DNA of 21,015 nucleotides from a virus: positions 1 to 21,015 of IMG/VR virus record IMGVR_UViG_3300006954_000005; one strand, written 5' to 3'. The position numbers and the translations under genes were made by a program. Below, in pieces: positions 6,592 through 21,015 of this stretch. The notes below the pieces were generated by a model. The model searched no databases and had not been told where the DNA came from. It saw only the letters and a list, made by a program, of their open reading frames with translations. Position 1 is the stretch's first letter, and each line of letters begins with the position of its first letter.

Positions 6592-7689
6592 TCAGTATTT
6601 CTTGGAAAGAGTCTGGATTTTTGCAATCCAATTCTCGTTTAGCCGTTTGCCGGCAAACCATGATTTCCAGGCCAAAGACCCTTGTTCGTTGAACGGATCG
6701 GCCACACCCGAACTTCCGGGTTTGTGATAGATCAGTTCAACCGTGGGGACTCGGTCGTACATCATGTAGATTTCCTTGGCGTGGTTTTCACCCAGACCAA
6801 TCGAACCTACCGCTTCCCGACCGTAAATGAAGGTCGAGTACACGTCATGCAGCACCGCCGAGGAACCGTGGAAGCCAGCGGCGGCAGCGGACTCAGTGGA
6901 ACCGTCCGAGATGATCGGAGCGATTTCAGTCGAGCACCACCGCACACCACCTACAGCCCCAAACTCGCCCGGTTCGGTTTCCGTATATCCGCCGTATTGT
7001 TCCACCGGGATAAAGCCAGTGAGGGCGCGGATTTCTTCTTCCACGTCCACATGGCAAATACCGTAGAACGACTGACGAATAGGCGAAGTCCCGATATTCT
7101 GAGACCCGAAACCTGCGGGAGTGAACTTCATTGCTGAATTGCGATTCAACTGATTGACACAGAAACGAATGTCATTCAGGTTGATCGCCTCTGCAATCGA
7201 GGAATAGGTAGCGGCCACTGTTCCGGCCGATCCATTCCCAATCCTGACGATTACAGATTCGCCGTCGTAGACGTTCCTCATCAGGGTGTTCAACGACTCC
7301 CCGGCATTCGCCCCCATGGTGTCCATCAGGGCCGCCGAGTTGCTATTGACGTTGAAGAGGTCGATCTCTTCGGTGAGGCTTAGTGCATTGCCGAACTTTT
7401 GAATCGCAACCGTTACGTCGGTGATCGTCGGGCGAACCGAACTACGACCGAATCCAAAAGCAGGAGTCGTTCCTTCGGTGTTCTCCGTCAGAGCCGTTGT
7501 AACCGCCGTAAGGTTCTCAATACGACGCCATTTGACTGACGCCGCACCTTGAGCCTTTTCCAGACTACCCGGGAGGGTTCCGTTGAAATACGGAAGCCTC
7601 TTTCGCGCTGCGGAGAGCAGAGTCTCCATCAGCACGAAATTTACCGGTGCCGGTACGGTTGATGCAAAGTTAGACTGAAGTAGAGCCAC
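6592..7689 (-). CDS. Major capsid protein, N4 gp56-like family
   Basis: A 365-residue protein in the scaffold-then-capsid position, assigned to the N4 gp56-type major capsid family. The C-terminus is diagnostic: Asp-Pro-Phe-Asn-Glu-Gln-Gly-Ser-Leu-Ala-Trp-Lys-Ser-Trp-Phe-Ala, then Arg-Leu-Asn-Glu-Asn-Trp-Ile. The N-terminal arm Ala-Arg-Lys-Arg-Leu-Pro-Tyr-Phe, the Thr-Pro-Ala-Phe-Gly-Phe-Gly-Arg-Ser-Ser-Val run and the Ile-Gln-Lys-Phe-Gly-Asn-Ala-Leu-Ser-Leu-Thr-Glu-Glu helix also fit this HK97-fold family. It builds the icosahedral head. The start codon is GTG with AGAGGAG six bases upstream, both inside a hairpin. A rho-independent terminator lies five bases after the stop, so capsid mRNA probably can end here. 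Confidence 0.92.
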   Translation of the reverse strand: MALLQSNFASTVPAPVNFVLMETLLSAARKRLPYFNGTLPGSLEKAQGAASVKWRRIENLTAVTTALTENTEGTTPAFGFGRSSVRPTITDVTVAIQKFGNALSLTEEIDLFNVNSNSAALMDTMGANAGESLNTLMRNVYDGESVIVRIGNGSAGTVAATYSSIAEAINLNDIRFCVNQLNRNSAMKFTPAGFGSQNIGTSPIRQSFYGICHVDVEEEIRALTGFIPVEQYGGYTETEPGEFGAVGGVRWCSTEIAPIISDGSTESAAAAGFHGSSAVLHDVYSTFIYGREAVGSIGLGENHAKEIYMMYDRVPTVELIYHKPGSSGVADPFNEQGSLAWKSWFAGKRLNENWIAKIQTLSKKY

Positions 7690-8444: not shown

Positions 8445-8639
8445 CTATTTGATTAGAGTTACATCCAAACCCAAAACCGTCATGCAAAGGTCAAAGCCTT
8501 CCTGCATGGCGGATTTGTGCTTCCATTCCTCTACGTTATCGACTTTGGAATCCCACGCTGGAACTATGGGCCTTTCGTCTTTCATCTTGTTCAGGAACCT
8601 GCGGAATTCAACATCGCCCATGACTTCCTGTAGATTCAA
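8445..8639 (-). CDS. Small conserved-type phage protein (64 aa), unknown function
   Basis: A 64-residue acidic/basic helical protein, MNLQEVMGDVEFRRFLNKMK onward, with Trp residues at 29 and 39. It sits directly before the scaffold gene. Short proteins with a Gly-Asp-x-x-Phe-Arg-x-Phe-Leu start occur beside scaffold and capsid genes in podovirus-like genomes, with no known role. The start I use is TTG at 8637-8639, which forms a TTGA overlap with the preceding stop and has a strong AGGAG six bases upstream. An in-frame ATG at 8621 with its own AGGA is a possible alternative that would drop six residues. Confidence 0.7.
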   Translation of the reverse strand: MNLQEVMGDVEFRRFLNKMKDERPIVPAWDSKVDNVEEWKHKSAMQEGFDLCMTVLGLDVTLIK

Positions 8640-9883
8640 TGCAGGCTCCTGTAGATCGTGTAAATCTTCATGACTTCATCTTCCTCGAACGCTTTGTTCA
8701 GGTCGTCAATCTCGGCTAGGAGGAATAGAAGCCGCTGCTGGAGGTCCATCAGTTTTTCTACAAGCCGCTCCATCCTGTACAGATCTGGAGCGATATCGAC
8801 CTGTCTTCTGACGGCCTCGATCTTCTTCTGGACTTGCTCGACTTCCTTCCTGAGTTGGGCCTCGGTCTTTAGTCTTCGGCCTTCCTCCCACCACTTGGGA
8901 GGCCTGTATCTACGACCAGAAGCCCCGCCGCCGCTTGTGACTTCCGGGGCGACCGGAGGAGGTGGTTGGGGAATCGCATCCAACATCGAGAACCCCAGAG
9001 CCAATGTCCTAAGGTCGCTCGGGAATAAATAGCCGTTCGGATTCTGCCAATCAAGGAGACTGAACGGCATCACCACCACGGGAGCGAGAGTCCCCTGGGA
9101 GAGGTTCTGAATCCAGGTATTCAGGTCAATGCTTCTACTCGGTCCTTTGGGAACCGGCCAATCGAGGTTCGCCGGTCCCTGTCCTGAAGCCCCGAAGAAC
9201 TTGTCCTGCCCTATCAGCGTCAGTTCTACCGCGTTCAGCCAAGTCCTGAGATCACTCGGGAACCTAGCTCCAAGTGGTACAGGCCAATCACCCTGTCTGA
9301 AGGGACTGGTCTGGCTCGGACTTTGAGTCCAGGTAAGAAGGTCTACAACCCGTCTAGGAACTCCTGGATTGGGCCAATCCCTCTGATTGAGAGGGGCTTG
9401 GACTGTAAGCGATCCGAGATTGAAAGACCTGACCCAACTCAGTAAATCTACCGACCTTTGAGACCCTCTAGGATTTGGGTAATCGTAGGTCGCCCATTGA
9501 CCAAATGTACCAAACTGCTTGTCCTTCCCGATCAGTTGGGTTTCTGTCGGGTTGATAAAGGTCCAGAGGTCGATTGATCTCTGCGGGCCTCGGGGGTTGG
9601 GATAGTCGTAGGTCCGCCATTGCCCCGGACCAGCGAACTGCTTATCCAGCCCCTTTAGTAGGGTCGCGTTTCTAGGACCACCCTCTATCCTCAGATATGC
9701 AGCTAGATAAAGAGCATCCCTACGTAGAGTCGGATTGGGGTAGTCATACGCCTTCCACTGACCATTCCCGGCGAACTGTTTCCCGCCTGAGGGCCCTCCT
9801 ACCCTTCCCTGTATAAAACCTGGAGGATTCTGATTAGCTTGTCCTAGAGGCCGGTTGTATATTAACGGCGCACGGATCGTCAT
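8636..9883 (-). CDS. Tandem-repeat protein (DYPNP/DWPxP repeats) with C-terminal coiled coil
   Basis: A 415-residue protein with two parts. Residues about 35-300 contain seven imperfect repeats, each centred on Asp-(Tyr/Trp)-Pro-x-Pro (cores at 46-51, 92-97, 133-138, 168-173, 198-203, 240-245 and 277-282) and followed after about ten residues by Asp-Leu-x-(Thr/Ser)-Trp or similar. Repeats 1, 2, 3 and 6 are preceded by a Lys-(Gln/Phe)-Phe-Gly/Ala linker with Gly-Gln. A Pro-rich hinge (302-313) and a Gly-rich link lead to a charged coiled coil (about 337-400, heptad-like Leu/Ile/Val spacing). The layout resembles a fibrous virion component in which a helical base holds a repeated rod. I do not recognise a family with known function. 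It overlaps the next start by TTGA. Confidence 0.7.
   Translation of the reverse strand: MTIRAPLIYNRPLGQANQNPPGFIQGRVGGPSGGKQFAGNGQWKAYDYPNPTLRRDALYLAAYLRIEGGPRNATLLKGLDKQFAGPGQWRTYDYPNPRGPQRSIDLWTFINPTETQLIGKDKQFGTFGQWATYDYPNPRGSQRSVDLLSWVRSFNLGSLTVQAPLNQRDWPNPGVPRRVVDLLTWTQSPSQTSPFRQGDWPVPLGARFPSDLRTWLNAVELTLIGQDKFFGASGQGPANLDWPVPKGPSRSIDLNTWIQNLSQGTLAPVVVMPFSLLDWQNPNGYLFPSDLRTLALGFSMLDAIPQPPPPVAPEVTSGGGASGRRYRPPKWWEEGRRLKTEAQLRKEVEQVQKKIEAVRRQVDIAPDLYRMERLVEKLMDLQQRLLFLLAEIDDLNKAFEEDEVMKIYTIYRSLH
8646..8650 (-). promoter_or_regulatory. Ribosome-binding site deciding a TTG start
   Basis: AGGAG lies six bases before the TTG at 8637-8639, inside the last codons of the repeat-protein gene. 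It is the main reason for accepting a TTG start for the 64-residue protein. Confidence 0.6.
8984..9781 (-). repeat. Seven imperfect protein-coding repeats in the repeat protein
   Basis: The coding repeats span residues 35-300 of the protein at 8636-9883. Units are roughly 30-46 residues; the first three are the longest and most alike (Lys-Gln-Phe-x-x-x-Gly-Gln-Trp-x-x-Tyr-Asp-Tyr-Pro-Asn-Pro), and later ones are shorter with Trp replacing Tyr. At DNA level the units have drifted, so this is an old expansion rather than a recent duplication. Confidence 0.75.
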
Positions 9884-10584
9884 CCGCTGCTACCGCCTAT
9901 AGGTATAAACCCGGCCTCCGGAGTTTGCTTTATCAAGAACGAAATCCCCACAGAGGTCGTAGAAAAAGTCGCCGTAGCTGTCTGGGTGTCGGTACTCGCA
10001 TTAGAACTAAGCCCCAAGTCCGCCAACATCAGTGAAGGGAAACTCACCGATTGGGAACTGGACTCCGCTCTTAATGTCATGGGAGCGGGTTGATCCATTC
10101 CCATTACGTCCAAAATCTTCAGGTTCGCGGCCCAGACACAAACCAAGGTGTTGTAGTTATTCCACGTCGCAGGGGTCAATGACGGAGCTACGGAACTCAC
10201 CCCGATGGCGTTCTGCTGTGCTCCCGAAGGGCCGTCCAACGGATAACTTAAATTCCCGCCTTGGTATTCAGCGAATATCCAAAATCCTGTCCCTGAGAGA
10301 TTAGTCCAGTTGAATGTATATGGCCCAGACTCCCCGGAGGAGATTTTGCAGAAAACCGCTACTCTACTGTTAGAAGCCGAGACGACAGCCTGCTGAATCT
10401 CCGACCACCCTGCCGGCGGGACTATATTTCCAGGCTCGCTCAAAGTACCTACGATTATCATTGCCGCTATCAACAAGGTCCCGTCTATCGGCGTTAGGAC
10501 GGTTGTTACGTCAACACTTGTCAGAGACCCTACGATAAAGTTTCCTGTGTTTGTCGCTGCATCTCTAATCTGGGGGCAAGCCAT
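9880..10584 (-). CDS. Beta-rich virion protein (tail fibre/decoration-like)
   Basis: A 234-residue protein. GAGG at a spacing of seven bases selects ATG 10584 over a TTG two codons upstream; the start overlaps the previous gene by 55 bases. Residues about 34-130 follow a pattern frequent in phage fibre and surface proteins: Gly-Thr-Leu-Leu-Ile-Ala-Ala-Met, then Val-Pro-Pro-Ala-Gly-Trp-Ser-Glu-Ile, then a Val-Ala-Val-Phe-Cys-Lys-Ile strand, then Tyr-Thr-Phe-Asn-Trp. It then has alternating strands ending in a hydrophobic Val-Gly-Ile-Ser-Phe-Leu-Ile strand. This looks like a two-sheet beta sandwich. A role as a virion surface protein is inferred; binding specificity is unknown. It overlaps the repeat-protein gene by ATGA (9880-9883). 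Confidence 0.6.
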   Translation of the reverse strand: MACPQIRDAATNTGNFIVGSLTSVDVTTVLTPIDGTLLIAAMIIVGTLSEPGNIVPPAGWSEIQQAVVSASNSRVAVFCKISSGESGPYTFNWTNLSGTGFWIFAEYQGGNLSYPLDGPSGAQQNAIGVSSVAPSLTPATWNNYNTLVCVWAANLKILDVMGMDQPAPMTLRAESSSQSVSFPSLMLADLGLSSNASTDTQTATATFSTTSVGISFLIKQTPEAGFIPIGGSSG

Positions 10585-11654
10585 GACCAAGCCTCACTGA
10601 TATTTTCGTAAGTGTCTGGCTTCCAGACAATACGTTGATTAGGACCGGACCATGGGAACTGCTCCCCTTCTTTTATTCCTTGGGATTCTTCCCAGAACTT
10701 CGGACGATTGCCTATGTAGGGATCGTCCTCCGAAATCTTGTTGAACATCAGCCAGGGTCTGTCTCCGAAGAGAGCGAGATTCCACGGCCCGCTCGGGACG
10801 AATAGATTGCATTTGGCTTGTTCATAAAGCGCCATTCTGATATCCAGATTCAAAGATGCGAGCGGGAACGTCATACATCCTAATATAGGGTCTCCGGCTT
10901 TCGCGGTGTCTCTGATGAATATGACTCTCTCGCCAGTAGAGTCGGCGAATTTCTTCCACGCCTCAATATTGCTGTTCCTATGCCCCCACGAGTCTAGTTC
11001 TCTGAGCGTCACCGTCACCGGAGAAGGGCCATCCTTGAGGAACATTCTCACCGTTTCTCTTGCTTCGTCCGATGCCTGGAGATGAGGCACCTGTTCCTGT
11101 TTCGCTGCCCGGGTGACATTTCTGAGCACGTACCAAGGACTCGCCCTGCCTCCTACAGCTCTTTGATCCTCGATACCACCTACCAACTTGATGAGGGGCT
11201 TCATGACGTTCACGAACATTTGCTGCTCTTGCGGGCTGCCTATTCCTGACTTCCCATCCTGACCCTTCGTAAAAGCCACTTTTAATGGGCTCGGCGCACC
11301 TTCTCTCCTGCGGGTCATTTCCGCATCTATCAGCCAGATCAGAAAATCAAAACTCTTAGGAGAAGATGCAAGGTTGTAGCAGACATAATCCGCGGTCAAA
11401 CCTTTGTCCGGAGGCCCCGATGAAATCCTCGCCCGTTCGTAGAGCTTCAACTTCAATGTATCCAGGACGAAAGGAACCGCGTATTCCATATCGGCCACAC
11501 CTGCAAAATCGCAGGCCATCAAGTTAGGTAACTGACAGACCGTGATCGTGGCGTGACAGATTTGCCCTCCTCTTGCTCTCTTTAGCCAAATCTCGAAAAG
11601 CTTTACTACTTCCTCATTACCGTAGGCTTGAGTATTCTTGACCTCAGAGAGCAC
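10530..11654 (-). CDS. Probable glycan-modifying protein, paralogue of the gene at 18917-19579
   Basis: This 374-residue protein shares four blocks in order with the 220-residue protein of the sugar cassette: YNLASSPKSFDF (93-104), a Val-Thr-Val-Thr-Leu-Arg block followed by a helix and Arg-Val-Ile (212-245), SGPWNLALFGDRPW (288-301) and PWSGPNQRIVW (334-344). It carries about 90 extra N-terminal residues, with Cys-His-Ala-Thr-Ile-Thr-Val-Cys at 33-40, and a longer middle. A glycosyltransferase-like role, perhaps GT-B fold, is inferred from the gene pair, not from a diagnostic motif. The start is uncertain. I use GTG 11654, which overlaps the preceding TAG by one base; the frame is open to 11762, but that would sit inside the previous gene. 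It is the only sugar-type gene placed among virion protein genes. Confidence 0.6.
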   Translation of the reverse strand: MLSEVKNTQAYGNEEVVKLFEIWLKRARGGQICHATITVCQLPNLMACDFAGVADMEYAVPFVLDTLKLKLYERARISSGPPDKGLTADYVCYNLASSPKSFDFLIWLIDAEMTRRREGAPSPLKVAFTKGQDGKSGIGSPQEQQMFVNVMKPLIKLVGGIEDQRAVGGRASPWYVLRNVTRAAKQEQVPHLQASDEARETVRMFLKDGPSPVTVTLRELDSWGHRNSNIEAWKKFADSTGERVIFIRDTAKAGDPILGCMTFPLASLNLDIRMALYEQAKCNLFVPSGPWNLALFGDRPWLMFNKISEDDPYIGNRPKFWEESQGIKEGEQFPWSGPNQRIVWKPDTYENISEAWSWLAPRLEMQRQTQETLS

Positions 11655-12169
11655 TAGAGCGGCTCGTAGACGATGTGAGCTCCCATCAGTCCTACAGAAC
11701 CGCCGGTAAAGGCAGAGAGCGTACTTCCAGAGGCAGAAGCCGTAGTCCCGATAATGCCCCACTCCTCTCCGGGAGCCGCAACCCAGCGCACGATCCCACC
11801 GAAGGCGTTGAACGACAGGTTGAGTCTCGCCTGAGTAGCAACCGAAGACCTTGCAGGCCCTGTGGAAGCTGCGACGAACGTCAGAACAGCCGTGGACATA
11901 GCTTGTGTAAAGCTATTCAACGGACCATCTGCATTCGGTGTTGCAAGAGCGGTAGGGGTCGTAGCGAAAGCCACTGACCTTGCGAACTGCATGATATTGA
12001 TAGACGAGGCCGAAGCTTGCCCTCCCTCGTAAATCTCGATCACGTTCAGGGCAGTCGAGGCACCGGGGTTTTCAATACCCATATACGTGCTGTTGGCCAG
12101 AAAGTTAGTACCACCATCCGCCGTGGCCGTAGGCGTAAAGGTCGCTGCTTGGAAGAGTCTTTTTGCCAT
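11654..12169 (-). CDS. Probable virion structural/decoration protein
   Basis: A 171-residue protein rich in Ala, Ser, Thr and Gly with a beta-strand pattern and no Cys. The ATG is preceded by AAGGA at a spacing of six bases. Residues 1-40 (MAKRLFQAATFTPTATADGG then Tyr-Met-Gly-Ile-Glu-Asn-Pro) and the Asn-Val-Ile-Glu-Ile-Tyr-Glu-Gly-Gly run look like a small capsid-type beta domain, and the C-terminal Leu-Met-Gly-Ala-His-Ile-Val-Tyr-Glu fits an edge strand. I do not recognise the family. Its place among other beta-rich proteins and before scaffold and capsid genes suggests a head decoration or accessory structural protein (inference). Its stop (TAG) overlaps a GTG of the next gene. Confidence 0.6.
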   Translation of the reverse strand: MAKRLFQAATFTPTATADGGTNFLANSTYMGIENPGASTALNVIEIYEGGQASASSINIMQFARSVAFATTPTALATPNADGPLNSFTQAMSTAVLTFVAASTGPARSSVATQARLNLSFNAFGGIVRWVAAPGEEWGIIGTTASASGSTLSAFTGGSVGLMGAHIVYEPL

Positions 12170-12178
12170 GATTGGTCC

Positions 12179-12550
12179 TTACGGTAATAGAATGTTGGGC
12201 GGTTGTAGTAACTCCTGCGGACTGCCCATCTTCTCCGCAAGCTCTAAGGTGATATCTACCACCTTGGAATAGGGTAAATGCACGTACAAAGGGTCGTGTC
12301 TCTTTAGATCACACCAATCGCAAATATAGTGATCGCATTGAGAGCAGTAGGCCCTTTCTCTGGTCCTCAGCGGATTTTTGATCCACGAGTTTTTACAATG
12401 AGAACAGGTGAGACTCGCGGCCTCGAATATCTTGCCCTCACCGCAGAATTTTGGATCGTAGCCAGCTTGTCTGGCAATTTCCTCAGGAAGTCCTGGAGAG
12501 GCACGGTGATCTACAAGAAGATAGCCTTCGTGTCTTTTGAGTGAACTCAT
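12179..12550 (-). CDS. Zinc-ribbon phage protein of unknown function
   Basis: A 123-residue protein with three Cys pairs: Cys49-x-x-Cys52, Cys69-x-x-Cys72 and Cys77-x-x-Cys80, plus His74. The arrangement is a treble-clef or zinc-ribbon-like knuckle with one or two metal sites. The N-terminal block MSSLKRHEGYLLVDHRASPG and the Phe-Glu-Ala-Ala-Ser-Leu-Thr-Cys-Ser-His-Cys run resemble a conserved protein I recall from environmental podovirus-like genomes, always without a known function. The start is ATG 12550, which forms an ATGA overlap with the upstream stop; an in-frame extension to 12601 is rejected because it lies inside the previous gene. It could be a minor virion protein, an assembly chaperone or a nucleic-acid-binding factor. 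Confidence 0.75.
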   Translation of the reverse strand: MSSLKRHEGYLLVDHRASPGLPEEIARQAGYDPKFCGEGKIFEAASLTCSHCKNSWIKNPLRTRERAYCSQCDHYICDWCDLKRHDPLYVHLPYSKVVDITLELAEKMGSPQELLQPPNILLP

Positions 12551-13206
12551 AGAACGATCTGCGCCATCAAAACATCCGCTGCACCGTCCGTCACCGACCA
12601 CGCTTTGAATCCGAGATTCGCCCCATCTGTCGGGTTCCCAGCATCAAACCCAACCCCAGGATTACCGGTTGTATAGCCCGAGGTGTCAGTAACCTGCGCG
12701 ATCTGCGTCCCGTTCTGAAAAACGGTTATGACTCTCGCACTTGAAGGTCCAGTGATGATAGCTTTGACGGTATCCCCATCCACGAATGGAGCCACCATCG
12801 CCACACCACCAGCCGTCAGATCAGTGATGCTGCCTTGAGGGCCGAGCCACTTGGCGATGATAAGAGTCCCGGTCGGCCCTAGACTGTCGATAAAGTCGCA
12901 CTCGTAGCTTTTGATCTCATTCCCTGGAACGTTGATTTGCATATTAATATGCAACTCGACTTCCGCTGCGCCGTGAGTGCCGGTCACGAACACTGTCCCA
13001 GTGACGGTTTGATCTTGGCCCCAAGTACCGTTTAATGCAGCTACAGAGTCGTTGCTACCGGAACTATCCGGCCCATTGATTCTATTCGGTGGGCCTGAGG
13101 CCGTTTTGACGTTCGTGGTCCAAGCCGCAGGCAGGGTGGTATTCCAGTTCCCGCCATCCGAGATCGGATTCTCTGGAGCAGCGCCAGACCATGTGTAAAA
13201 GGCCAT
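12547..13206 (-). CDS. LamG/concanavalin-like beta-sandwich virion protein
   Basis: A 219-residue protein rich in Thr, Gly, Asn and Ser with alternating beta-strand pattern. The C-terminal stretch TSGYTTGNPGVGFDAGN followed by Leu-Gly-Phe-Lys-Ala-Trp-Ser-Val-Thr-Asp is characteristic of concanavalin A-like (LamG-type) jelly-roll domains: glycine-rich turn, then the final strand before the end. The middle Val-Glu-Leu-His-Ile-Asn-Met-Gln and Asp-Gly-Asp-Thr-Val-Lys-Ala also fit. Such domains bind carbohydrate or decorate capsids and fibres in phages, so a surface or host-glycan-binding role is inferred. Only a weak ribosome-binding site (GGAT) precedes the ATG. It overlaps the zinc-ribbon gene by ATGA (12547-12550). 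Confidence 0.65.
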   Translation of the reverse strand: MAFYTWSGAAPENPISDGGNWNTTLPAAWTTNVKTASGPPNRINGPDSSGSNDSVAALNGTWGQDQTVTGTVFVTGTHGAAEVELHINMQINVPGNEIKSYECDFIDSLGPTGTLIIAKWLGPQGSITDLTAGGVAMVAPFVDGDTVKAIITGPSSARVITVFQNGTQIAQVTDTSGYTTGNPGVGFDAGNPTDGANLGFKAWSVTDGAADVLMAQIVL

Positions 13207-13357: not shown

Positions 13358-15532
13358 TTAATTCGCCTCGCTCACCACGTATCCGTCGCCGGTCTTCTGG
13401 ACCTTTGTCTTTCTCGGACGCGAAGCGATCTCGCGCATCTTAGCTTCGTGTTCGGCCTGTTTTCTAGCGGACTCCTGTCTATCCAAAGCTGCTTGATCCG
13501 CAATCTGCCGTGCTTGTAGAGCATAGTCCGCAGCGAGGGCTTGTCTTTCGAGCAGGAATCGTTTTTCCATGTCCTGACGCTCGATTTCGAGTTTTGCTAT
13601 GGTCTCGTTCGCTTTCCTGACGACTTCTGCTGCGTCCTTCTTCATCTCGGAGACCGCCAGAGCTTTCTCGGTCTGTTGCTCGGCGATCTTGATTTGGATA
13701 TTCGCCTGGGCCTCTTGTTGTTGGAGTTGCAACTTCTGCATCGCAACGGCTTCGCCGGACTTGGCCTTTTGAAGCTCTTGACTCATCTCCTGCAACTGCT
13801 GCTGCATTTGCTGAATTTGTTGTTGTACTTGAGGCGGAATTTGAGGTCCTTGGGTATTCACGTAAGACTCGGCACCCTTGACCCCAGCGTCTTCGTACAT
13901 ATCAATCAGGATTTGCGGTCTGTTCAACAGTTCCATGAATCCCGGAGTCTGGGCTGCAAAAGCGGTAACGGAGGTCATTTGCTGCGCTCTACGCTGTTCA
14001 CCCAAGACGCCCTTGGAACCCACAATCTCGAAGTGGACCGTATCCGGAAGGTCCTTTTTCTGGATGACGATGAAATCTGGAAGTTCCTTCTCGGCGCAGT
14101 AGAAGGAATAGCTGGTCAACTTCTTCAGATTGAATTCGTGCTGCATGTAGAGAAACCTGCGAAGCCCCGAGGGTTCGAGCTTCCCTACAAAATCCACTGT
14201 CCTGACTTCACCAGACTGCTGGGTATTGGTGACTTCGGTAGCCGTTTTACGGTCTGCATCCGAAGCTCCCGACCGAATCGCATTTACAGCCGTTCCTTCC
14301 TCGATCTTCTGAAGCCCGAACTGAACACCTTGCAGGGCTATGGCCGGATCCCCAACCACCATGAAATTGACCTTGTTCGACCCTTTAGATGGGTCCATCG
14401 CCCCCGGCTGGATTCTGGGACCACCCATTCTCACCAGATAAGCGTCATTTCCATCGTAAGTTCCAGGAGGGCTGATATGCAGGGAAACACCATCTATGAA
14501 TTTGTTAGCCAGGATGGTGGTCATCTTCTGCATCGGGGAATTCTTGACTATCGGGGAGGTAAAGTACGGGTCCCGAACATCCTGTCTTTCATACCCCATA
14601 TAGATCACTGGAGCGAACGGCATCTCATTAGGGGCGTAGTAGATGATCGTGTCGTTCGCGGTCATGCACTTGGAATTAGGAAGGTAGATATCCCCGTCGT
14701 CCCGCTCTATGACCAAATCCCCGTAGTAGGTGAGGATCTCAACATCGTCCGTATCCACGCCCTTATCCGTGTTCTGTCGCTTCGGAATCTTGGTGTTGGA
14801 GATGTTCATATATCCTTCGCCCTCAAGATCCAAGACCTTGTAGCGAGGCATATACGAAATAATCATCATCGAGCCCGTATAGAAGATATTCCCCTCCGGT
14901 ATTACAGAGGGACTCATATCCGGGTAACAGTTCCACATGCTGTGAGGCTTCCACACCGGAGCCTCTAAAGACTCGACTCCTTTACCATCGTAAATCTTGT
15001 TCTGGACTTCCCAGATCGTCTCAGCAACGAACGACCCGTGGTGAAGAGCTTCCTTTATCGAAAGTTCGACCCTAGCTCTGAGGCCGAAGTCCAGATGTTG
15101 TTGCGCCATGAACGATCTATAAACTCCATCGGCCTTGTCCTGTTTCTTCTGGTCTACAGGCACAGGCTTACCGGTCTGTGGATCGAGGACTTGAGGCGGC
15201 TTTACGTGCGTCTCGAACCAGGTCCTGTTAGCAGGAAAGACGAGCCTTAGAACATCCGCTGTGATAATTTCCGAAGCCTTGGATAACTCTCCAAGCTCGA
15301 AGGCCGATGTCCAGTCTCTAGGGGCTTCTTTGCCGTCTGGCATGTACTTCACCATCGGCTTCATGGCTATCTGTCTATCGACTTCCTTCCAGATTTTTTC
15401 GTGATCGTTCCGGAAGTCAGAGTCTTTACGTCTCTGGAGCTCCTTTTTCAGGAATTCCTCTACCTCCTGCCAATCTTTAGCTCTGATCTTCCGTTTCTTG
15501 ACCTTTTCGTTGGAGGTCTCGGCGGTCGTCAC
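13358..15532 (-). CDS. Portal (head-tail connector) protein with C-terminal coiled coil
   Basis: This 724-residue protein directly follows the terminase, the classic position of the portal, through which DNA enters and leaves the head. The N-terminal half has the charged helical start and the Trp-Thr-Ser-Ala-Phe-Glu-Leu...Leu-Arg-Leu-Val-Phe-Pro pattern typical of podoviral portals. The middle (about 300-480) is a mixed domain with Pro-Met-Gln-Lys-Met and Ser-Gly-Ala-Ser-Asp-Ala-Asp-Arg-Lys-Thr-Ala-Thr-Glu-Val, a segment common in such portals. From about residue 566 to 704 it is one long Gln/Glu/Lys-rich coiled coil, similar in position to the C-terminal helical barrel of the P22 portal, which is of nearly equal length; direct homology to P22 is not claimed. 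It starts with GTG at 15532 (GTGA overlap). Confidence 0.9.
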   Translation of the reverse strand: MTTAETSNEKVKKRKIRAKDWQEVEEFLKKELQRRKDSDFRNDHEKIWKEVDRQIAMKPMVKYMPDGKEAPRDWTSAFELGELSKASEIITADVLRLVFPANRTWFETHVKPPQVLDPQTGKPVPVDQKKQDKADGVYRSFMAQQHLDFGLRARVELSIKEALHHGSFVAETIWEVQNKIYDGKGVESLEAPVWKPHSMWNCYPDMSPSVIPEGNIFYTGSMMIISYMPRYKVLDLEGEGYMNISNTKIPKRQNTDKGVDTDDVEILTYYGDLVIERDDGDIYLPNSKCMTANDTIIYYAPNEMPFAPVIYMGYERQDVRDPYFTSPIVKNSPMQKMTTILANKFIDGVSLHISPPGTYDGNDAYLVRMGGPRIQPGAMDPSKGSNKVNFMVVGDPAIALQGVQFGLQKIEEGTAVNAIRSGASDADRKTATEVTNTQQSGEVRTVDFVGKLEPSGLRRFLYMQHEFNLKKLTSYSFYCAEKELPDFIVIQKKDLPDTVHFEIVGSKGVLGEQRRAQQMTSVTAFAAQTPGFMELLNRPQILIDMYEDAGVKGAESYVNTQGPQIPPQVQQQIQQMQQQLQEMSQELQKAKSGEAVAMQKLQLQQQEAQANIQIKIAEQQTEKALAVSEMKKDAAEVVRKANETIAKLEIERQDMEKRFLLERQALAADYALQARQIADQAALDRQESARKQAEHEAKMREIASRPRKTKVQKTGDGYVVSEAN

Positions 15533-16971
15533 CAGTTAGATGCTCCTACTGGCACAGGTCTTTGCTTGACGTTCAGATAAGGCGTGATCCAGTGCCTTCT
15601 CATCATGTAGGCGTACCGCGAGGCCGAAATCACGTCATCGGCGTATTTCACGATCTTCGTATCTAGCCCTCGGTGGTACATCTGCTTTTCCTCCATCCAT
15701 GTTCTGCAAGTCTTAAAGACCTTCCAGCGACCCGTATGCATCCTTTCCAGCATTTCCAGTAGCGGAGCCTCGACCGAATTCCCACCTTTGCCTTCATCGT
15801 CTCCAGGTGCCGGAGGGTTACTTGCTTTTTCGTGCCAGACGTTGACATGAGAGAGCCTGTATTGATCGATCAATGCTTCTCCGGTTCCCTTTTCGGTATT
15901 CAATCCATCGTGCGGCCAGAAGACCGGTATCCACTCGCCCCACTTATTCACAACCGATGCATGTACAGCTGGTAGAGCTTTCGATTCCCGATAGTCGGCG
16001 ATGAGATAGATAACATCTGCATCCCGATCCCAAGCGAGTCTTGCAGCTCCGAACGGATGATCCCAGCCGAAGTCGATACCGGTGCCCTGAACCCAATGCC
16101 TGGGTATCTCGATTGGATCGATCAGAACCTTCTCATCTGGAATGTTGAAGATGACTCCAGCGCCGGCTAGAGGCGTACCCTTGGACCTCAACTCGCGTTC
16201 ATGCTCCGGGATGGAGGCAAGTTTTTCCGCTCTCACATCTGGGGTCATATGTGGTGCATCGTCCCAAGAGGCGGTTATCAAAGCCTGTCCAGGTTGGATA
16301 TTGTTGAATAACTGAGATACCACCGCCGTCATCCCCTCCTCGGGCGTGAAAGTCGCCATTACCAGAGACTTGCTCTTGGCAAATGTCGCCCTGATGATCT
16401 GGCTCAAGACTTGGGAGTCGGGTTCTTCGTCCAGGTGTGCTACATCCGTAGCGCGCGCCATGAACTTCTTGAAGCCCATTTCATAGGCGAGGAATTTCAA
16501 CTTCGACCATCCTCTGGTTCTTGTTTTTATCAGGACCGTATCTATGGCATTCGGGACACCGGCTTTGCGGGTTATCTTCCCGATGTGCTCTATCGGAATG
16601 GTCCCGGTTCCTATTTGTTTATCGTCCTCCGGGTCCCCGATGTACAAAGCCTGTAGATGATCTCTGGTGAGATCGTTGGTGACACTTGCGCAGACCATCT
16701 GTATCGGATAGTGGAACCTGTGTCCTTTCCACCAATCCGGATAAATACCGGTGAGATGCATCGCGCCTTCGTAAGCAGCGCAGATGGTCTTCCCGATCTT
16801 ATTCGCAGCTACAATCGCTCTGAAGTGAGCAAGTTTTCCTGGAGTCTTGAAACCCTCCGCATGGTGGAACCTGAGTTGATACGGATATGGCTTGTAGGCG
16901 TCGAGCTTGTGAGTTGCTTTTTTCCTGTCTATCGCGGCGAGGAGTTTTACGAACTGTTCAGCCGGTTCCAT
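15529..16971 (-). CDS. terL: Terminase large subunit (DNA-packaging ATPase/nuclease)
   Basis: This 480-residue protein is the motor that pumps DNA into the prohead and cuts the concatemer. The ATPase half has a Walker A-type loop AANKIGKT (55-62), a Walker B strand with acidic pair ATDVAHLDEE (174-183, Asp181 and Glu182) and a coupling motif Ala-Thr-Phe-Thr-Pro (206-210). The C-terminal RNase H-like nuclease half shows the three expected acidic positions: Gly-Ile-Asp300-Phe-Gly-Trp-Asp, Trp-Pro-His-Asp355, and Lys-Tyr-Ala-Asp445-Asp446. Length is normal for TerL. It starts inside the end of the GT8-like gene and meets the portal with a GTGA overlap. A small terminase subunit is not recognisable in the window; it may lie outside. 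Packaging mode (headful or ends-specific) cannot be decided from sequence. Confidence 0.95.
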   Translation of the reverse strand: MEPAEQFVKLLAAIDRKKATHKLDAYKPYPYQLRFHHAEGFKTPGKLAHFRAIVAANKIGKTICAAYEGAMHLTGIYPDWWKGHRFHYPIQMVCASVTNDLTRDHLQALYIGDPEDDKQIGTGTIPIEHIGKITRKAGVPNAIDTVLIKTRTRGWSKLKFLAYEMGFKKFMARATDVAHLDEEPDSQVLSQIIRATFAKSKSLVMATFTPEEGMTAVVSQLFNNIQPGQALITASWDDAPHMTPDVRAEKLASIPEHERELRSKGTPLAGAGVIFNIPDEKVLIDPIEIPRHWVQGTGIDFGWDHPFGAARLAWDRDADVIYLIADYRESKALPAVHASVVNKWGEWIPVFWPHDGLNTEKGTGEALIDQYRLSHVNVWHEKASNPPAPGDDEGKGGNSVEAPLLEMLERMHTGRWKVFKTCRTWMEEKQMYHRGLDTKIVKYADDVISASRYAYMMRRHWITPYLNVKQRPVPVGASNW

Positions 16972-17641
16972 TCAGCGACGCCAGTTCCTTCAACCATTCC
17001 TCTGCAAATGGACAGTCCGAATATTCTTTGAACCAAGGACCCCCACGGGTGAAATGCACAAGCCTCGCATCCGCAGAAGGACACTGATTTTCCTCCCCGA
17101 CAAGATGGTTCCACGTCTTCGGAATTGCACCTATCTTGTCGTCCTTCGTCCAGTGAAACTGGTGTAGGGCTAGACCTGGAGCGTTGTTCACATACTCAGG
17201 GGTTAGCGTCCTACAAAGCGCGTTGTTGAAGATCATCATCGAGGACCAGTTCTTCTTTGGGTATCGTGTCTGAATCTGATCCAGGAACTTCCGCTCATCC
17301 TTGGGTCTATAGTCGTGCTCTACGACCTGGACAGCATCCGACCACCTGGAGGCGAGGGTCATGTACTTCGCAATTTCTACAATGTCGCCGAGACAGAGCA
17401 TGTCGCAATCCAGAAACACCGCCCAGCCTTCATAATTACAAAGGTACGGAACGATGAATCTTGAAATGCTGAAATCCGTGGACTCGAACTCACCACGAGG
17501 CCTGTCGTAAATGCCCTTTAGATTCGCCCTGTCCAGGAACGTGAAACTCACCGGTATAGATGATCTTCTTCTTATGGAATGTGCCAAGACATGGGCGGCA
17601 ATGGATTCCTTGTCGTCCCAGCCTATGAAAACGCGGATCAT
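16958..17641 (-). CDS. GT8-like glycosyltransferase
   Basis: A 227-residue GT-A enzyme. It opens with MIRVFIGWDDKESIAAHVL, typical of GT8-related proteins that carry an invariant Trp-Asp near the N-terminus. The strand Ala-Val-Phe-Leu-Asp-Cys-Asp-Met places the metal-binding DxD at Asp78 and Asp80. Near the C-terminus Leu-Val-His-Phe-Thr-Arg-Gly-Gly-Pro-Trp-Phe is the usual closing motif, supplying a His and Gly-Pro that contact the nucleotide. The start codon overlaps the preceding stop (ATGA, 17638-17641), and the end overlaps the terminase start by 14 bases. It therefore ends the sugar cassette and links it to the packaging genes. Donor sugar and acceptor are unknown. Confidence 0.8.
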   Translation of the reverse strand: MIRVFIGWDDKESIAAHVLAHSIRRRSSIPVSFTFLDRANLKGIYDRPRGEFESTDFSISRFIVPYLCNYEGWAVFLDCDMLCLGDIVEIAKYMTLASRWSDAVQVVEHDYRPKDERKFLDQIQTRYPKKNWSSMMIFNNALCRTLTPEYVNNAPGLALHQFHWTKDDKIGAIPKTWNHLVGEENQCPSADARLVHFTRGGPWFKEYSDCPFAEEWLKELASLNGTG

Positions 17642-18435
17642 CTGATTCTGGTGTCGAATAGACCCTTGTTCAATTCCCCGGAGTGCATATAGCAGTCATG
17701 GGTGAAGAACCACTGGTGCATGTGATTGGCCTTGCGTTTCATCCACCGAGAGAGATAGTCCTTCGACAAATCCTCCATCGGCTTTTTGTACCAGACGTAG
17801 TCTTCTTCGCTCAATTCGAAACAGGTAAATTCATCCGAGTCGGTGACGATGTAGCAGTCCTTGGGTTCGTATCCCAAAAGACCGCCGCCATCTATAGACT
17901 TGACCTTACCGATATTCCCCTTCATCAAAATAGGATGCATGTGGATGCACCTTGCTACCAGAGTGTCTTCATTTCTCCAGTAGATTTGATATGGGGTTCC
18001 TGAGAAAGGCTTCGCTCCCCAGAATAAAGATTCCGACCCCGGATGAATATTGGCAAGAGCAAGCTTGCACAAGTCCCTATTGCTGATCGGCAGATGGAGA
18101 CCATGCAGGAATTTGTCCTTGTTCAGCCTCACCGCCGGGACTACGACCAAGTCCTTGACGCAGTCTTGTAAAAACTTTCCGGCCCCTTCGCCGAATACCA
18201 TATCGGCGCAGAGAATGACCGTCTTATCTCCGTAGGACAGGATGTGCTTATAGCAATCAGTCACGAGCTCGATCTTGTCATCAGGCGGTCTTATCCTGAT
18301 GGTCTTGTATCCCGGGAATTCTTCGGGCTCATCGGTGAAGACGGTGATGCAATCAAGTCCAAGCGAGGGAAGGCAGATGTTCTTAGCCAACCACCGGTAC
18401 TCAGGCCCCCAGGCGACTAATACCCCTCGCAACAT
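17638..18435 (-). CDS. GT-A-like glycosyltransferase (hypothetical)
   Basis: This 265-residue protein starts at ATG 18435 (MLRGVLVAWGPEYRWLA), overlapping the methyltransferase stop by 19 bases. Residues 1-60 look like a GT-A nucleotide-sugar fold. The Val-Ile-Leu-Cys-Ala-Asp-Met segment (73-79) occupies the position where glycosyltransferases carry a DxD-type motif, though only one Asp is present. The block from Gly146 to Leu159 (Thr-Pro-Tyr-Gln-Ile-Tyr-Trp-Arg) plus Ala-Arg-Cys-Ile-His-Met-His-Pro (161-168) is a distinctive conserved-looking signature, followed by Ser-Ile-Asp-Gly-Gly (180-184) and Val-Thr-Asp-Ser-Asp-Glu (197-202), candidate catalytic acids. Function rests on this fold impression and on context; the exact activity is unknown. 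It joins the next gene by an ATGA overlap. Confidence 0.6.
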   Translation of the reverse strand: MLRGVLVAWGPEYRWLAKNICLPSLGLDCITVFTDEPEEFPGYKTIRIRPPDDKIELVTDCYKHILSYGDKTVILCADMVFGEGAGKFLQDCVKDLVVVPAVRLNKDKFLHGLHLPISNRDLCKLALANIHPGSESLFWGAKPFSGTPYQIYWRNEDTLVARCIHMHPILMKGNIGKVKSIDGGGLLGYEPKDCYIVTDSDEFTCFELSEEDYVWYKKPMEDLSKDYLSRWMKRKANHMHQWFFTHDCYMHSGELNKGLFDTRIR

Positions 18436-18944
18436 AGCGCAAAGAGGTAGTGGCACATCGGGAAGAATCCGGTATGTACGACTTCGTCATTCATCCCGAA
18501 CATGAAAACGTGCCTCCAGTATTTTTCGCAAAGAACTTTCAATTCTTCGCCGGATTTGCAATTAACGTGACCCTCCTTGGAAAGCCTGGAGGCGTAGACC
18601 TGAGACTCGACCGAAGGTGTTCCGATAACACAGACCGGAGCGCAAAGAGAGAGATTGTTCAGGAACGTGTTCTCTTCCTTGATATGCTCGAATACATCTA
18701 TGCAGTAGACCGCGTCGTATCCGGTTTTTGGACAGGACAATGCATCGTAGCCTGTCTTTATGTCCGTGACTTCCAATTCTCCAACTACTTGCTCCACTAT
18801 CTTGGAGTAGATTCCCTCGCCGGCTCCAATCTCAAGAACTTTCTTTTTCCCCGCGAGCATCTTGGAGACGAACTTATAACGAGAGGCGGTGAAGACGAAA
18901 TGCTTGGGGTCGTCTTTCAGTACGTAGGCGAAGTCTCCGTCCAT
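18417..18944 (-). CDS. SAM-dependent methyltransferase (class I)
   Basis: A 175-residue Rossmann-type methyltransferase. Motif I is VLEIGAGEG at residues 36-44 (SAM-binding Gly loop), the acidic residue after strand 2 is Asp61, and the motif-IV region DAVYCIDVFEHI lies at 77-88. Later Ile-Gly-Thr-Pro-Ser (107-111) and Gly-His-Val-Asn (125-128) are commonly seen in phage and surface-sugar methyltransferases. The start chosen is ATG 18944, overlapping the upstream stop by 28 bases; an open frame extends further upstream to 19070 but would add 42 residues inside the previous gene. With glycosyltransferases on both sides, the likely substrate is a sugar or glycan rather than DNA: no DNA-methylase target-recognition region or Asn/Asp-Pro-Pro-Tyr motif is visible. 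Confidence 0.85.
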   Translation of the reverse strand: MDGDFAYVLKDDPKHFVFTASRYKFVSKMLAGKKKVLEIGAGEGIYSKIVEQVVGELEVTDIKTGYDALSCPKTGYDAVYCIDVFEHIKEENTFLNNLSLCAPVCVIGTPSVESQVYASRLSKEGHVNCKSGEELKVLCEKYWRHVFMFGMNDEVVHTGFFPMCHYLFALCCEGY

Positions 18945-19579
18945 ATTATTTTCTGATTCTCGTTCGCCCAAGGTAGTTGCTCGTTGTACCAGCCGTGTTC
19001 TTTGTGGTAGGTCTCCCACCGGCCTACTGGTTTTATATACGCCGTGTAGGGATAGTCCGAGAAGAGACACAAAGACAAAGGGCCGTTCTGTCCGAAGTAG
19101 TTCATCTCAGCCCCGGCGTAGATCGAAAACCGCTCTGCAAGGTCTATCGGCTCGTCGTAGTAGTCTTCGATCACCCGAGCGCCGATTTTCTTGGCGAAGA
19201 CTCTCCATTCGTCCCCCGTGTTTCTTTCAGGGTGACGATGGTAATGCCTGATCGTAACCGTGAATCTGTCAGAGCCCTTGGTCTTGGAGATGAGTTTCCT
19301 GATGAAACCTTTTTCTCTGTAGGCTTTCAGGACCGAGGACATATGATGTCCAGGTGTTATCCCTCTTGACTCTGTGAAATCGAAACTCACCCCCACGATC
19401 TTGCAAGCGGGAATCAGGATGGAGTGGATTCGTTCTTCCAGTTCCTGACCATGGAACTTCTTAGACCCGTTCTGTAGGTCGAAGATAATATGATCCGCCC
19501 CGTAAGTCGTGGCGGCGACTAGAAACTCGATGAAGTTAAAACTAGCCGGCGACTGCCTGAGGTTGTAGCTTGCGTCCAC
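18917..19579 (-). CDS. Probable glycan-modifying protein, paralogue of the gene at 10530-11654
   Basis: I cannot name the family. The 220-residue protein shares four ordered blocks with the 374-residue protein encoded at 10530-11654: YNLRQSPASFNF (4-15) with YNLASSPKSFDF; a Val-Thr-Ile-Arg block ending in Lys-Ile-Gly-Ala-Arg-Val-Ile (106-137); NGPLSLCLFSDYPY (165-178) with SGPWNLALFGDRPW; and PWANENQKIIW (203-213) with PWSGPNQRIVW. A Gly-Pro followed by a helix and Pro-Tyr/Trp near the C-terminus recalls the donor-binding half of GT-B enzymes, so glycosyltransferase activity is a reasonable inference given five sugar-related neighbours. The start is GTG at 19579, which keeps the conserved YNL block; it overlaps the preceding gene by 38 bases. 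No strong ribosome-binding site decides it. Confidence 0.65.
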   Translation of the reverse strand: MDASYNLRQSPASFNFIEFLVAATTYGADHIIFDLQNGSKKFHGQELEERIHSILIPACKIVGVSFDFTESRGITPGHHMSSVLKAYREKGFIRKLISKTKGSDRFTVTIRHYHRHPERNTGDEWRVFAKKIGARVIEDYYDEPIDLAERFSIYAGAEMNYFGQNGPLSLCLFSDYPYTAYIKPVGRWETYHKEHGWYNEQLPWANENQKIIWTETSPTY

Positions 19580-20237
19580 CTTTTAGGTGTTCCATATAGG
19601 AACCCAAGACTGTAAGCGGCCAGACGTGATCTATGCCCTGAAGATTAGAGTGGTTCAGGTCGTTGCCTTTTATCCCCGACCTCGCATGGTCGAATACGAC
19701 CGCGTCCTCCCAAGTCTTCAGGTTCATAAACCGTCCTGAAGTGTAAGTAGGGAGATAGTTTCTCCTGAACTTAGTGAAGTCAGGATGCTCGGTGTTGAAG
19801 CCGAGGAATCCGGTCTCGGAACAGAAATTCGACCTTCCTAGATAGCAAAATGGGTCGTCCTTTATGAGCCCCGAAAGGAAACTCTCTGGGATCGGTTTGT
19901 TGGTTATCGTGTCCGCGTCCAGCCAGAAGACTTCCTTATCTTCGTCGAAAACGCTGTCCATGCAAAAGACCTTCCGGCAAAACCTGTATGCGTCGAATCT
20001 ATAGTCGTATCTTCCGTCGATCCTCCCATCAGCTCCGTCAACGTCTTTGAGCTTTTCAAGGAACGCTCGGATTCCTTCTATGTCGTAGAGAAACCTATAC
20101 TCGATCTGCGTAGAGATAAAATCCGGCTTTTGCTCGTAGCAGACGATGAACTTACACGGCCAATTGTGAAGGGTCTCAAGACATCTCTTACCGTAGAGCT
20201 TATAGCCTTCTGGGGAGAAACTCGTTACGGCAAGCAT
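19542..20237 (-). CDS. GT-A-type glycosyltransferase with DxD motif
   Basis: This is a 231-residue protein. It opens with MLAVTSFSPEGYKLYG, a typical first beta strand and helix of a GT-A nucleotide-sugar fold. A basic/aromatic region (RYDYRFDAYRFCRKVF, about 76-91) precedes the hydrophobic strand carrying the metal/sugar-nucleotide motif Trp-Leu-Asp-Ala-Asp (Asp107 and Asp109). Then come Leu-Gly-Arg (133-135) and Glu-Thr-Gly-Phe-Leu-Gly-Phe-Asn (141-148), a usual acceptor-side signature in such proteins. I chose the ATG at 20237, which overlaps the preceding stop by 13 bases and has AAGGGA upstream; an in-frame TTG at 20300 would add 21 residues that do not look like part of the fold. The donor and acceptor are unknown. 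It is likely co-translated with its neighbours, given the overlaps on both sides. Confidence 0.75.
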   Translation of the reverse strand: MLAVTSFSPEGYKLYGKRCLETLHNWPCKFIVCYEQKPDFISTQIEYRFLYDIEGIRAFLEKLKDVDGADGRIDGRYDYRFDAYRFCRKVFCMDSVFDEDKEVFWLDADTITNKPIPESFLSGLIKDDPFCYLGRSNFCSETGFLGFNTEHPDFTKFRRNYLPTYTSGRFMNLKTWEDAVVFDHARSGIKGNDLNHSNLQGIDHVWPLTVLGSYMEHLKGGRKLQPQAVAG

Positions 20238-20851
20238 CCTATATTTGTCCCTTTGAAATGCTTGCCTAAGAAATGCAGGAGTATGTGCTCCGACTTCCAA
20301 TCATTGCCCGTGGTCTTCGTCCCACCATCGTTGAACGGCGTAGGGACTGTGGACTTGTAATCGAGTTTCGGGTTGAAGACGATATCGAATCCCGCAAGGG
20401 TAAGAATCCGTGGATTTAATATCTCCAAGACGCATACCGCTGCCGCCATGCCTGTACTCAAGTTTGGATGACTCGCACCCATATCTCTAAAGAGCTTGTT
20501 CCAGACGAAGGCTTGGTGAGTTAAAACTCTGATCCTCGACCCGTTAGTCTTTTTTCTGAGGGAATCTATAAGACCTGTATCGTAGGTCTCATACTTGGGG
20601 TAGCACCAGTATTCCTCTGCCGGGACCTTGTGAAGGTGGTAACAGACCTCCGTGGTCGAGAACATGATGTCGGTTCTCGTGCCGTAGTCCTCTTTATTCT
20701 TGAGGAGCTCGGAACAGTTTTTAAGACGCAGGACTTTTTCGTGAGCGTCTATTTTCTTACCTAAACTTTTACCTTCGAGACTCGGGCCATGCCCTACTAT
20801 GACGACTTCCACTCTCTCAAACTCTGAAAGACGTTCACGTTCGGATACCAC
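20225..20851 (-). CDS. Sialyltransferase-like glycosyltransferase (GT29/GT42-type)
   Basis: This 208-residue protein resembles the sialyltransferase fold. Near the N-terminus (residues 16-45) VVIVGHGPSLEG leads into Gly-x-x-Ile-Asp-x-His-x-x-Val-x-Arg-x-x-Asn, which matches the sialylmotif L pattern. Gly-Thr-Arg-Thr-Asp (57-61) follows, and LSTGMAAAVC...LAGFD at 131-156 matches sialylmotif S. The C-terminal Asn-Asp-Trp-x-x-Glu (183-188) lies where GT29 enzymes have a His-x(3-4)-Glu motif, so the catalytic His may be missing. In the family the donor is CMP-sialic acid or a related CMP-sugar; that is family knowledge and not shown here. The start is uncertain: GTG at 20851 gives a 55-base overlap with the upstream gene, and an in-frame GTG at 20812 just before the domain is an alternative. 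It probably acts on virion or host glycans (inference). Confidence 0.6.
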   Translation of the reverse strand: MVSERERLSEFERVEVVIVGHGPSLEGKSLGKKIDAHEKVLRLKNCSELLKNKEDYGTRTDIMFSTTEVCYHLHKVPAEEYWCYPKYETYDTGLIDSLRKKTNGSRIRVLTHQAFVWNKLFRDMGASHPNLSTGMAAAVCVLEILNPRILTLAGFDIVFNPKLDYKSTVPTPFNDGGTKTTGNDWKSEHILLHFLGKHFKGTNIGCLP

Positions 20852-21015
20852 AACATGGGGCCGTTCTTGTCTCCATATCTATACTGAAACTGATCTATGA
20901 CTCGTCCCGATGTAACAGGCGGTATAACGACATCAACCCGTGCCCCGATACTGCCTGCGATGTGGGCGATGGTCTGGGGTACTGTAACCACCTTCTCCAG
21001 ATTTGCGCAGATCCC
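20797..21015 (-). CDS. GT9-like glycosyltransferase, C-terminal part only
   Basis: The reading frame is open to the window edge, so only the last 72 codons of a longer gene are present. An internal GTG at 20991 could be mistaken for a start, but the frame is open upstream of it (Gly-Ile-Cys-Ala-Asn-Leu-Glu-Lys-Val) and those residues fit the family. The segment VTVPQTIAHIAGSIGARV followed by a Trp-Tyr-Pro-Asn-Val motif resembles the C-terminal nucleotide-sugar-binding half of GT9 (heptosyltransferase-like) GT-B enzymes, which typically read as Asp-Thr-Ser-x-Ala-His-Leu-Ala-Gly-Ala-Leu-Gly and later Pro-Trp-Tyr-Pro. The usual first Asp is replaced here by Pro-Gln. It overlaps the next gene by 55 bases and opens the visible sugar cassette. 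Substrate cannot be predicted. Fold assignment is moderately sure. Confidence 0.6.
   Translation of the reverse strand, partial: GICANLEKVVTVPQTIAHIAGSIGARVDVVIPPVTSGRVIDQFQYRYGDKNGPMLWYPNVNVFQSLREWKSS

Follow-up and report, generated by a model that had tools for sequence, protein, structure and literature searches.

A glycosyltransferase cassette overlapping the terminase gene in a clade of podoviruses, and its proposed role in virion glycosylation

The cassette and its genes

In this work we have examined a 21,015-base fragment of the IMG/VR virus record IMGVR_UViG_3300006954_000005 (the window), and in particular a cassette of seven genes on its minus strand, at 16958-21015, which runs into the gene for the terminase large subunit, terL. 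An earlier note had described these genes as a glycosylation cassette joined to terL without a gap, and this layout is confirmed: all seven open reading frames (ORFs) are present and open, and the seven junctions from GT1 to terL all overlap, by 16, 13, 38, 28, 19, 4 and 14 bases, the last being that of GT7 with terL. The overlaps had been put at 4-55 bases; their range is 4-38, and the figure of 55 came from an upstream GTG of ST2. Profile, motif or predicted fold marks four of the genes as glycosyltransferases (GT1, ST2, GT3 and GT7), which together with MT5 agrees with the claim of at least four glycosyltransferases and one S-adenosylmethionine (SAM) methyltransferase. Two further genes had been called sugar-type, but these, U4 and GT6, have no match in the Pfam or PHROG profiles. 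The gene limits given here are the likeliest starts, judged from the window sequence and from the starts in relatives.

20797-21015, minus strand: GT1, C-terminal 72 amino acids, cut by the window end; GT-B/GT9-like glycosyltransferase, aligns with full-length relatives
20225-20812, minus strand: ST2, GT29 sialyltransferase-like protein (Pfam GT29); relatives favour the GTG at 20812, the longest ORF runs from 20851
19542-20237, minus strand: GT3, putative GT-A glycosyltransferase (WLDAD motif)
18917-19579, minus strand: U4, no family assigned; homologue of the gene at 10530-11600
18417-18944, minus strand: MT5, SAM methyltransferase (Methyltransf_23)
17638-18435, minus strand: GT6, no family assigned, possibly a sugar enzyme; no profile match
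16958-17641, minus strand: GT7, GT8-like glycosyltransferase (phrog_28018, FLDCDM motif)
15529-16971, minus strand: terL, terminase large subunit (Terminase_6N and Terminase_6C, 1e-17)
13358-15532, minus strand: portal protein (phrog_1216 portal, 8.7e-15; phrog_332, 5e-18)
10530-11600 (longest ORF to 11762), minus strand: GTX, homologue of U4 by BLASTP, between the portal and scaffold genes
6592-7689, minus strand: major capsid protein (phrog_1357, 3.3e-38)

Since the window ends within GT1, which is the first cassette gene in nearly all relatives, the cassette is probably complete except for the N-terminus of that protein. On the 3' side of terL follow the portal gene, a group of unassigned genes, a scaffold-like gene and then the major capsid gene. 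Because the cassette genes overlap terL, they very probably share a transcript with the genes for packaging and capsid; scans for promoters and terminators gave counts near or below those of shuffled sequence.

The family assignments of the individual proteins differ in strength. ST2 matches Pfam GT29 at 1.7e-7 (31.3 bits against a cut-off of 23), and a profile of its ten-member family aligns with porcine ST3Gal-I (2wml) over 183 columns at 8e-6. MT5 exceeds the cut-off of Methyltransf_23 (2.3e-8) and carries the motif VLEIGAGEG. GT7 matches phrog_28018 at 1.3e-46, and 11 of the 15 aligned members of its family match Glyco_transf_8, the best at 1e-6. GT3 has no convincing match in Pfam or the PDB, the motif WLD.D is invariant in its family, and we regard it as a putative glycosyltransferase on the strength of this motif and of its gene company only; a profile-profile comparison of GT3 with GT7 was not significant. 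GT3 followed by GT7 is a pair also seen in many marine virus contigs (L090-L165, L223), and in one of these, Pelagibacter phage Mosig (L223), it lies near nucleotide metabolism genes and not near structural genes. U4 is homologous to GTX (BLASTP, 26% identity, 2e-16, to 10533-11600), so that GTX is an eighth cassette-related gene outside 16958-21015. Among the viral contigs and phage records searched, U4, GT6 and GTX have no relatives, and profile-profile comparisons of GT6 with GT3 or GT7, and of U4/GTX with GT1 or GT9, were not significant.

Conservation beside terL and sugar supply in relatives

Scanning viral contigs with terL, and adding loci from other searches, we obtained 34 loci of the clade, which also share the portal gene. 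GT1 is found in 26 of them, in addition to the window, and in the other eight the upstream sequence is shorter than 4 kb; it was not seen in terL relatives lacking a portal match. After addition of the loci from a GT1 scan and dereplication by terL, 40 groups with GT1 on the contig were obtained. This larger set was partly found through GT1, and only the set of 34 loci is free of that bias. In all 40 groups GT1 and terL share a strand, with GT1 upstream, which answers favourably the check proposed by the earlier note, whether related phages keep the cassette next to terL. GT1 is the first recognised cassette gene in 38 of the 40; the exceptions are L255 and L258, where a match that is epimerase-like or GT7-like stands further upstream. 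ST2 and GT3 each occur in 21 groups, GT7 (downstream of GT1) in 17, radical SAM proteins in eight, GT9 in six and other genes in fewer. The predicted genes are closely packed, with 255 of 294 junctions no more than 30 bases apart and 231 abutting or overlapping. The gene set, its strand and its order thus recur in 40 dereplicated relatives and are not due to chance. The middle genes turn over fast, as L007, whose terL is 64% identical to that of the window, has only GT1 and ST2 as common recognised cassette genes. The radical SAM/SPASM protein of the eight relatives lies within the cassette (L035:7563-8498; also L020, L167, L257, L269 and L286).

The sole match in the genome collection which carries the cassette is a contig of a Gammaproteobacteria metagenome-assembled genome, possibly misbinned. 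An integrase was found in 3 of 17 clade records, and MW202713 is annotated with an integrase, a repressor and an antitermination protein, which precede the cassette and run the same way. On these grounds at least some members of the clade look temperate, and a late, antiterminated expression of the cassette is plausible.

Where would the sugar donors come from? The window itself has no genes for nucleotide-sugar synthesis, from which the earlier note concluded that host donors are probably used; this stands for the window phage, but not for many of its relatives. GDP-mannose 4,6-dehydratase is encoded in 16 of the 40, as is a DegT-family enzyme, which is ColD-like in at least 14. The dehydratase of L035 scores 372 bits against TIGR01472, the cut-off of which is 415. 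The DegT-family protein of the same locus matches ColD at 3e-101 and has a histidine at the position of the aminotransferase lysine. Among the 16 dereplicated copies, 14 show the corresponding ColD motif, SHH..T.EGG, with histidine in place of the lysine that binds pyridoxal phosphate; of the other two, L266 was not read and L001 is too distant (22% alike) to be classed. We also considered that the DegT-family gene of the relatives might make GDP-perosamine, and rejected this idea, since the enzyme is ColD-like with histidine for lysine. In L030, a GDP-fucose-synthase-like protein (4.5e-81) would complete a GDP-colitose-type or GDP-fucose route. A cassette protein of L027 (4910-5554) has a heptose kinase/adenylyltransferase match in PHROG (6e-22), a hint of nucleotide-sugar supply.

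GT1, its cellular kin and a second podovirus lineage

GT1 is the most conserved cassette gene among relatives. As the window copy is cut, its fold was studied on the full-length relative in L035, for which AlphaFold2 gave a model of the GT-B/GT9 fold with a pLDDT (predicted local distance difference test) of 89. Foldseek matched it to heptosyltransferase II WaaF (1psw, 5e-6), a GT9 protein (3tov) and TibC (4rap), with values up to about 1e-4. The fold check proposed by the earlier note was informative for this protein and not for GT6, of which a single-sequence AlphaFold2 model was discarded (pLDDT 32). In the clade of the window phage, which we call clade A, GT1 is mostly 315-393 amino acids long, with a short helical N-terminus in the model and no Pfam match. 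The highest mean hydropathy over 19 residues in the cassette proteins examined was 1.6, and none has a clear membrane segment.

Since all GT1 sequences aligned together were too varied for a scan of the collection, a subset of five was used, and the resulting list is biased towards clade-A-like GT1. The plasmid records contain tetratricopeptide repeat (TPR) proteins of Azospirillum and Roseomonas whose C-terminal domain GT1 matches. A hidden Markov model of the GT1 catalytic domain reached 4e-51 with a Roseomonas protein encoded beside flagellin and 2.7e-50 with an Azospirillum protein. In Roseomonas the TPR-glycosyltransferase gene stands immediately ahead of flagellin, flaF and flbT. Genes of this kind in Azospirillum brasilense Sp7 and TSH58 have flagellin and FlbT matches nearby, and in Azospirillum L325 no flagellin was found in the neighbourhood of such a gene. 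By these matches, the nearest cellular relatives of GT1 that we found are TPR-glycosyltransferases, several of them encoded beside flagellin. On the Azospirillum plasmids L327-L332 several TPR-glycosyltransferase genes stand in tandem, some near flagellin and FlbT matches.

A second podovirus lineage, clade B, is represented by MW202512, whose capsid protein and terL arrangement differ from those of the window clade. Here a GT1 annotated as a tetratricopeptide repeat protein, an FkbM methyltransferase and GT7 come soon after the capsid gene. Among 34 loci of this type the capsid gene lies upstream in 20 of 21 and a stabilisation gene downstream in 28 of 28, and GT1 stands between the capsid and tail-stabilisation genes in all 15 loci that show both. 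In a maximum-likelihood tree of GT1, computed without an outgroup, support for the two phage lineages is 100/100 and 100/99. Because cellular enzymes fall between these two well-supported branches, the tree favours, but does not prove, a separate recruitment of GT1 by each lineage.

A glycan on the virion and its alternatives

We think it likely that the cassette encodes a protein-glycosylation line of the virus's own, which works in the cytoplasm and acts on a virion protein. The gene content, order, overlap, conservation, homologies and tree described above were observed directly; for the acceptor, linkage, glycan, timing and purpose we offer the following proposal. GT1 probably adds the first sugar to a phage structural protein, in the manner of FlmG, before assembly; ST2, GT3 and GT7, and perhaps U4 and GT6, would then extend the glycan sugar by sugar, and MT5 may cap or methylate it. 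The window phage would draw its sugar donors from the host, and many relatives would make part of their own through GDP-mannose dehydratase and ColD. Swapping of the middle genes could give each phage its own glycan. The major capsid protein is one candidate acceptor among others, and the proteins encoded at 8636-13206 are candidates likewise. A virion protein is favoured by the position of the enzymes within virion gene blocks in two lineages, the overlap with terL, the flagellin-linked kin of GT1, the absence of GtrA from 17 clade records and the lack of clear membrane segments. Virion glycosylation had been suggested by the earlier note; that suggestion is strengthened by the flagellin-linked relatives and by the second lineage with its enzymes between capsid and tail genes, and gene content and position both suggest that phages of this kind make a sugar coat of their own for their virion proteins. 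A more far-reaching version, to which we give an even chance, is that two podovirus lineages independently recruited a flagellin-type protein O-glycosyltransferase to their blocks of virion genes, and built around it a mosaic glycan line with gene swapping, in some phages with a colitose-type GDP-3,6-dideoxyhexose supply, so that each 40-kb phage has a sugar coat of its own.

Several observations weigh against glycosylation of a virion protein. The best Foldseek matches of GT1 are lipopolysaccharide (LPS) heptosyltransferases, with a TM-score of about 0.45 or less. By the AlphaFold2 model and Pfam, clade-A GT1 apparently lacks the TPR domain which gives FlmG its acceptor specificity. In the window copy of ST2 the histidine of motif VS (H-x4-E) is an asparagine (20303-20305), whereas the aligned relatives keep the histidine, and this ST2 may be altered or inactive. 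Lastly, GT9, GT8, GT29, GDP-mannose dehydratase and ColD fit LPS synthesis equally well, and by enzyme family alone glycosylation of protein and of LPS cannot be told apart.

Could the cassette instead remodel the LPS core or O-antigen of the host, either for superinfection exclusion or to keep progeny off debris? The GT9 heptosyltransferase fold and the GT8 and GT29 families would suit such a role, as would the GDP-mannose dehydratase and ColD of the relatives, colitose being a known O-antigen sugar. However, GtrA was found in none of 17 clade records (the controls were positive), the cassette proteins examined are without a clear membrane segment, and the cassette is coupled to terL and not to a lysogeny region. 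Acyltransferase_3 genes are typical of O-antigen conversion, and the only one found (L324, G006:24674-25462) lies a few kb from an integrase, away from the cassette. Moreover, late action would change little of a surface already formed. We therefore hold LPS remodelling to be unlikely, though the most serious of the alternatives.

Several known systems may be compared. The mycobacteriophages Che8, Corndog and Myrna have glycosyltransferases whose targets are capsid and tail-tube proteins (Freeman et al. 2023, as cited in PMC12363180). The enzymes are phage-encoded there as in the window phage, and the glycan, proven on mycobacteriophage virions, is a prediction from the genes here; the likeness drawn is one of description. 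The present cassettes differ in that they are podovirus lines of several genes, tied to terL, which include methyltransferases and, in the relatives, enzymes for nucleotide sugars. FlmG of Caulobacter is a cytoplasmic flagellin O-glycosyltransferase made up of TPR and GT-B parts (PMC7591256). It is soluble and acts before assembly, and the GT-B domain of GT1 is related to proteins encoded beside flagellin; the likeness of these proteins to FlmG is one of domain layout and flagellin context. FlmG has an N-terminal TPR domain that binds the acceptor, whereas the N-terminus of clade-A GT1 is short and helical in the AlphaFold2 model; in clade B, the MW202512 protein carries a TPR annotation. As clade A appears to lack that domain, we class GT1 as FlmG-like in action and not as FlmG. 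The sugar used by FlmG is pseudaminic acid. The chlorovirus PBCV-1 encodes most of its own cytoplasmic machinery for capsid glycosylation (PMC5408694), and resembles the present case in its virus-encoded cytoplasmic line, GDP-mannose dehydratase and methyltransferase domain; it differs in being a large algal virus with a proven glycan, the glycan of the present phages being a predicted one. TibC, a protein heptosyltransferase with a GT9-like fold, is among the best structural matches of GT1 at a TM-score of about 0.4, and is an iron-containing dodecamer according to its PDB title. The Gtr serotype-conversion cassettes of temperate phages likewise consist of phage-borne glycosyltransferases, but the 17 clade records have no GtrA and the present cassette sits in the structural block, not at an attachment site. 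By this comparison the cassette would work like virion glycosylation of the Che8 and chlorovirus types, and like FlmG at its first step. Among open-licence papers we found no description of these podovirus cassettes.

Other acceptors seem much less probable. As cytoplasmic protein glycosyltransferases could modify any cytoplasmic protein, and the sequence names no acceptor, the target might be a host protein such as a defence component. Yet two lineages have the cassette within their virion gene blocks, and a series of several enzymes suits a displayed glycan, which makes a host target quite improbable in our view. Phages are also known to glycosylate hydroxymethylated bases, and T4-like glycosylation of phage DNA against restriction would find some encouragement in a DNA methyltransferase-like PHROG match within the cassette of one relative (L027). 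Against this, the thymidylate synthase/dCMP hydroxymethylase family is absent from all 25 distinct clade records (with positive controls; the early region of the window is missing), the cellular kin of GT1 are linked to flagellin, and the varied nucleotide-sugar and methyltransferase genes fit a multi-sugar glycan better. Tet_JBP had no match in the clade records, but the controls of that search gave none either. We give DNA glycosylation hardly any credence.

If glycosylation of virion proteins is confirmed, multi-step virion glycosylation would be no rarity of mycobacteriophages and giant algal viruses but a trait fixed throughout entire podovirus lineages of environmental samples, and the first enzyme of the line would be traceable to flagellin glycosylation. 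One could then test which pressures favour sugar-coated phage particles in nature. Protein glycoengineering might also draw on the mosaic gene order as a source of soluble glycosyltransferases that act step by step.

Some features elsewhere in the window may be mentioned. An open frame of 475 codons on the plus strand (13541-14968), antisense to the portal gene, is probably a by-product of portal codon usage. Between portal and scaffold, 12179-12601 encodes a small protein whose CxxC motifs are paired and whose zinc-finger matches are weak. The 580-amino-acid protein of 1649-3391 has several copies of AGGTPGFN.STG near its N-terminus and a further one later on, and the 415-amino-acid protein of 8636-9883, a possible virion surface protein, carries a motif like GQW.TYDYPNPRG..RS.DL several times.

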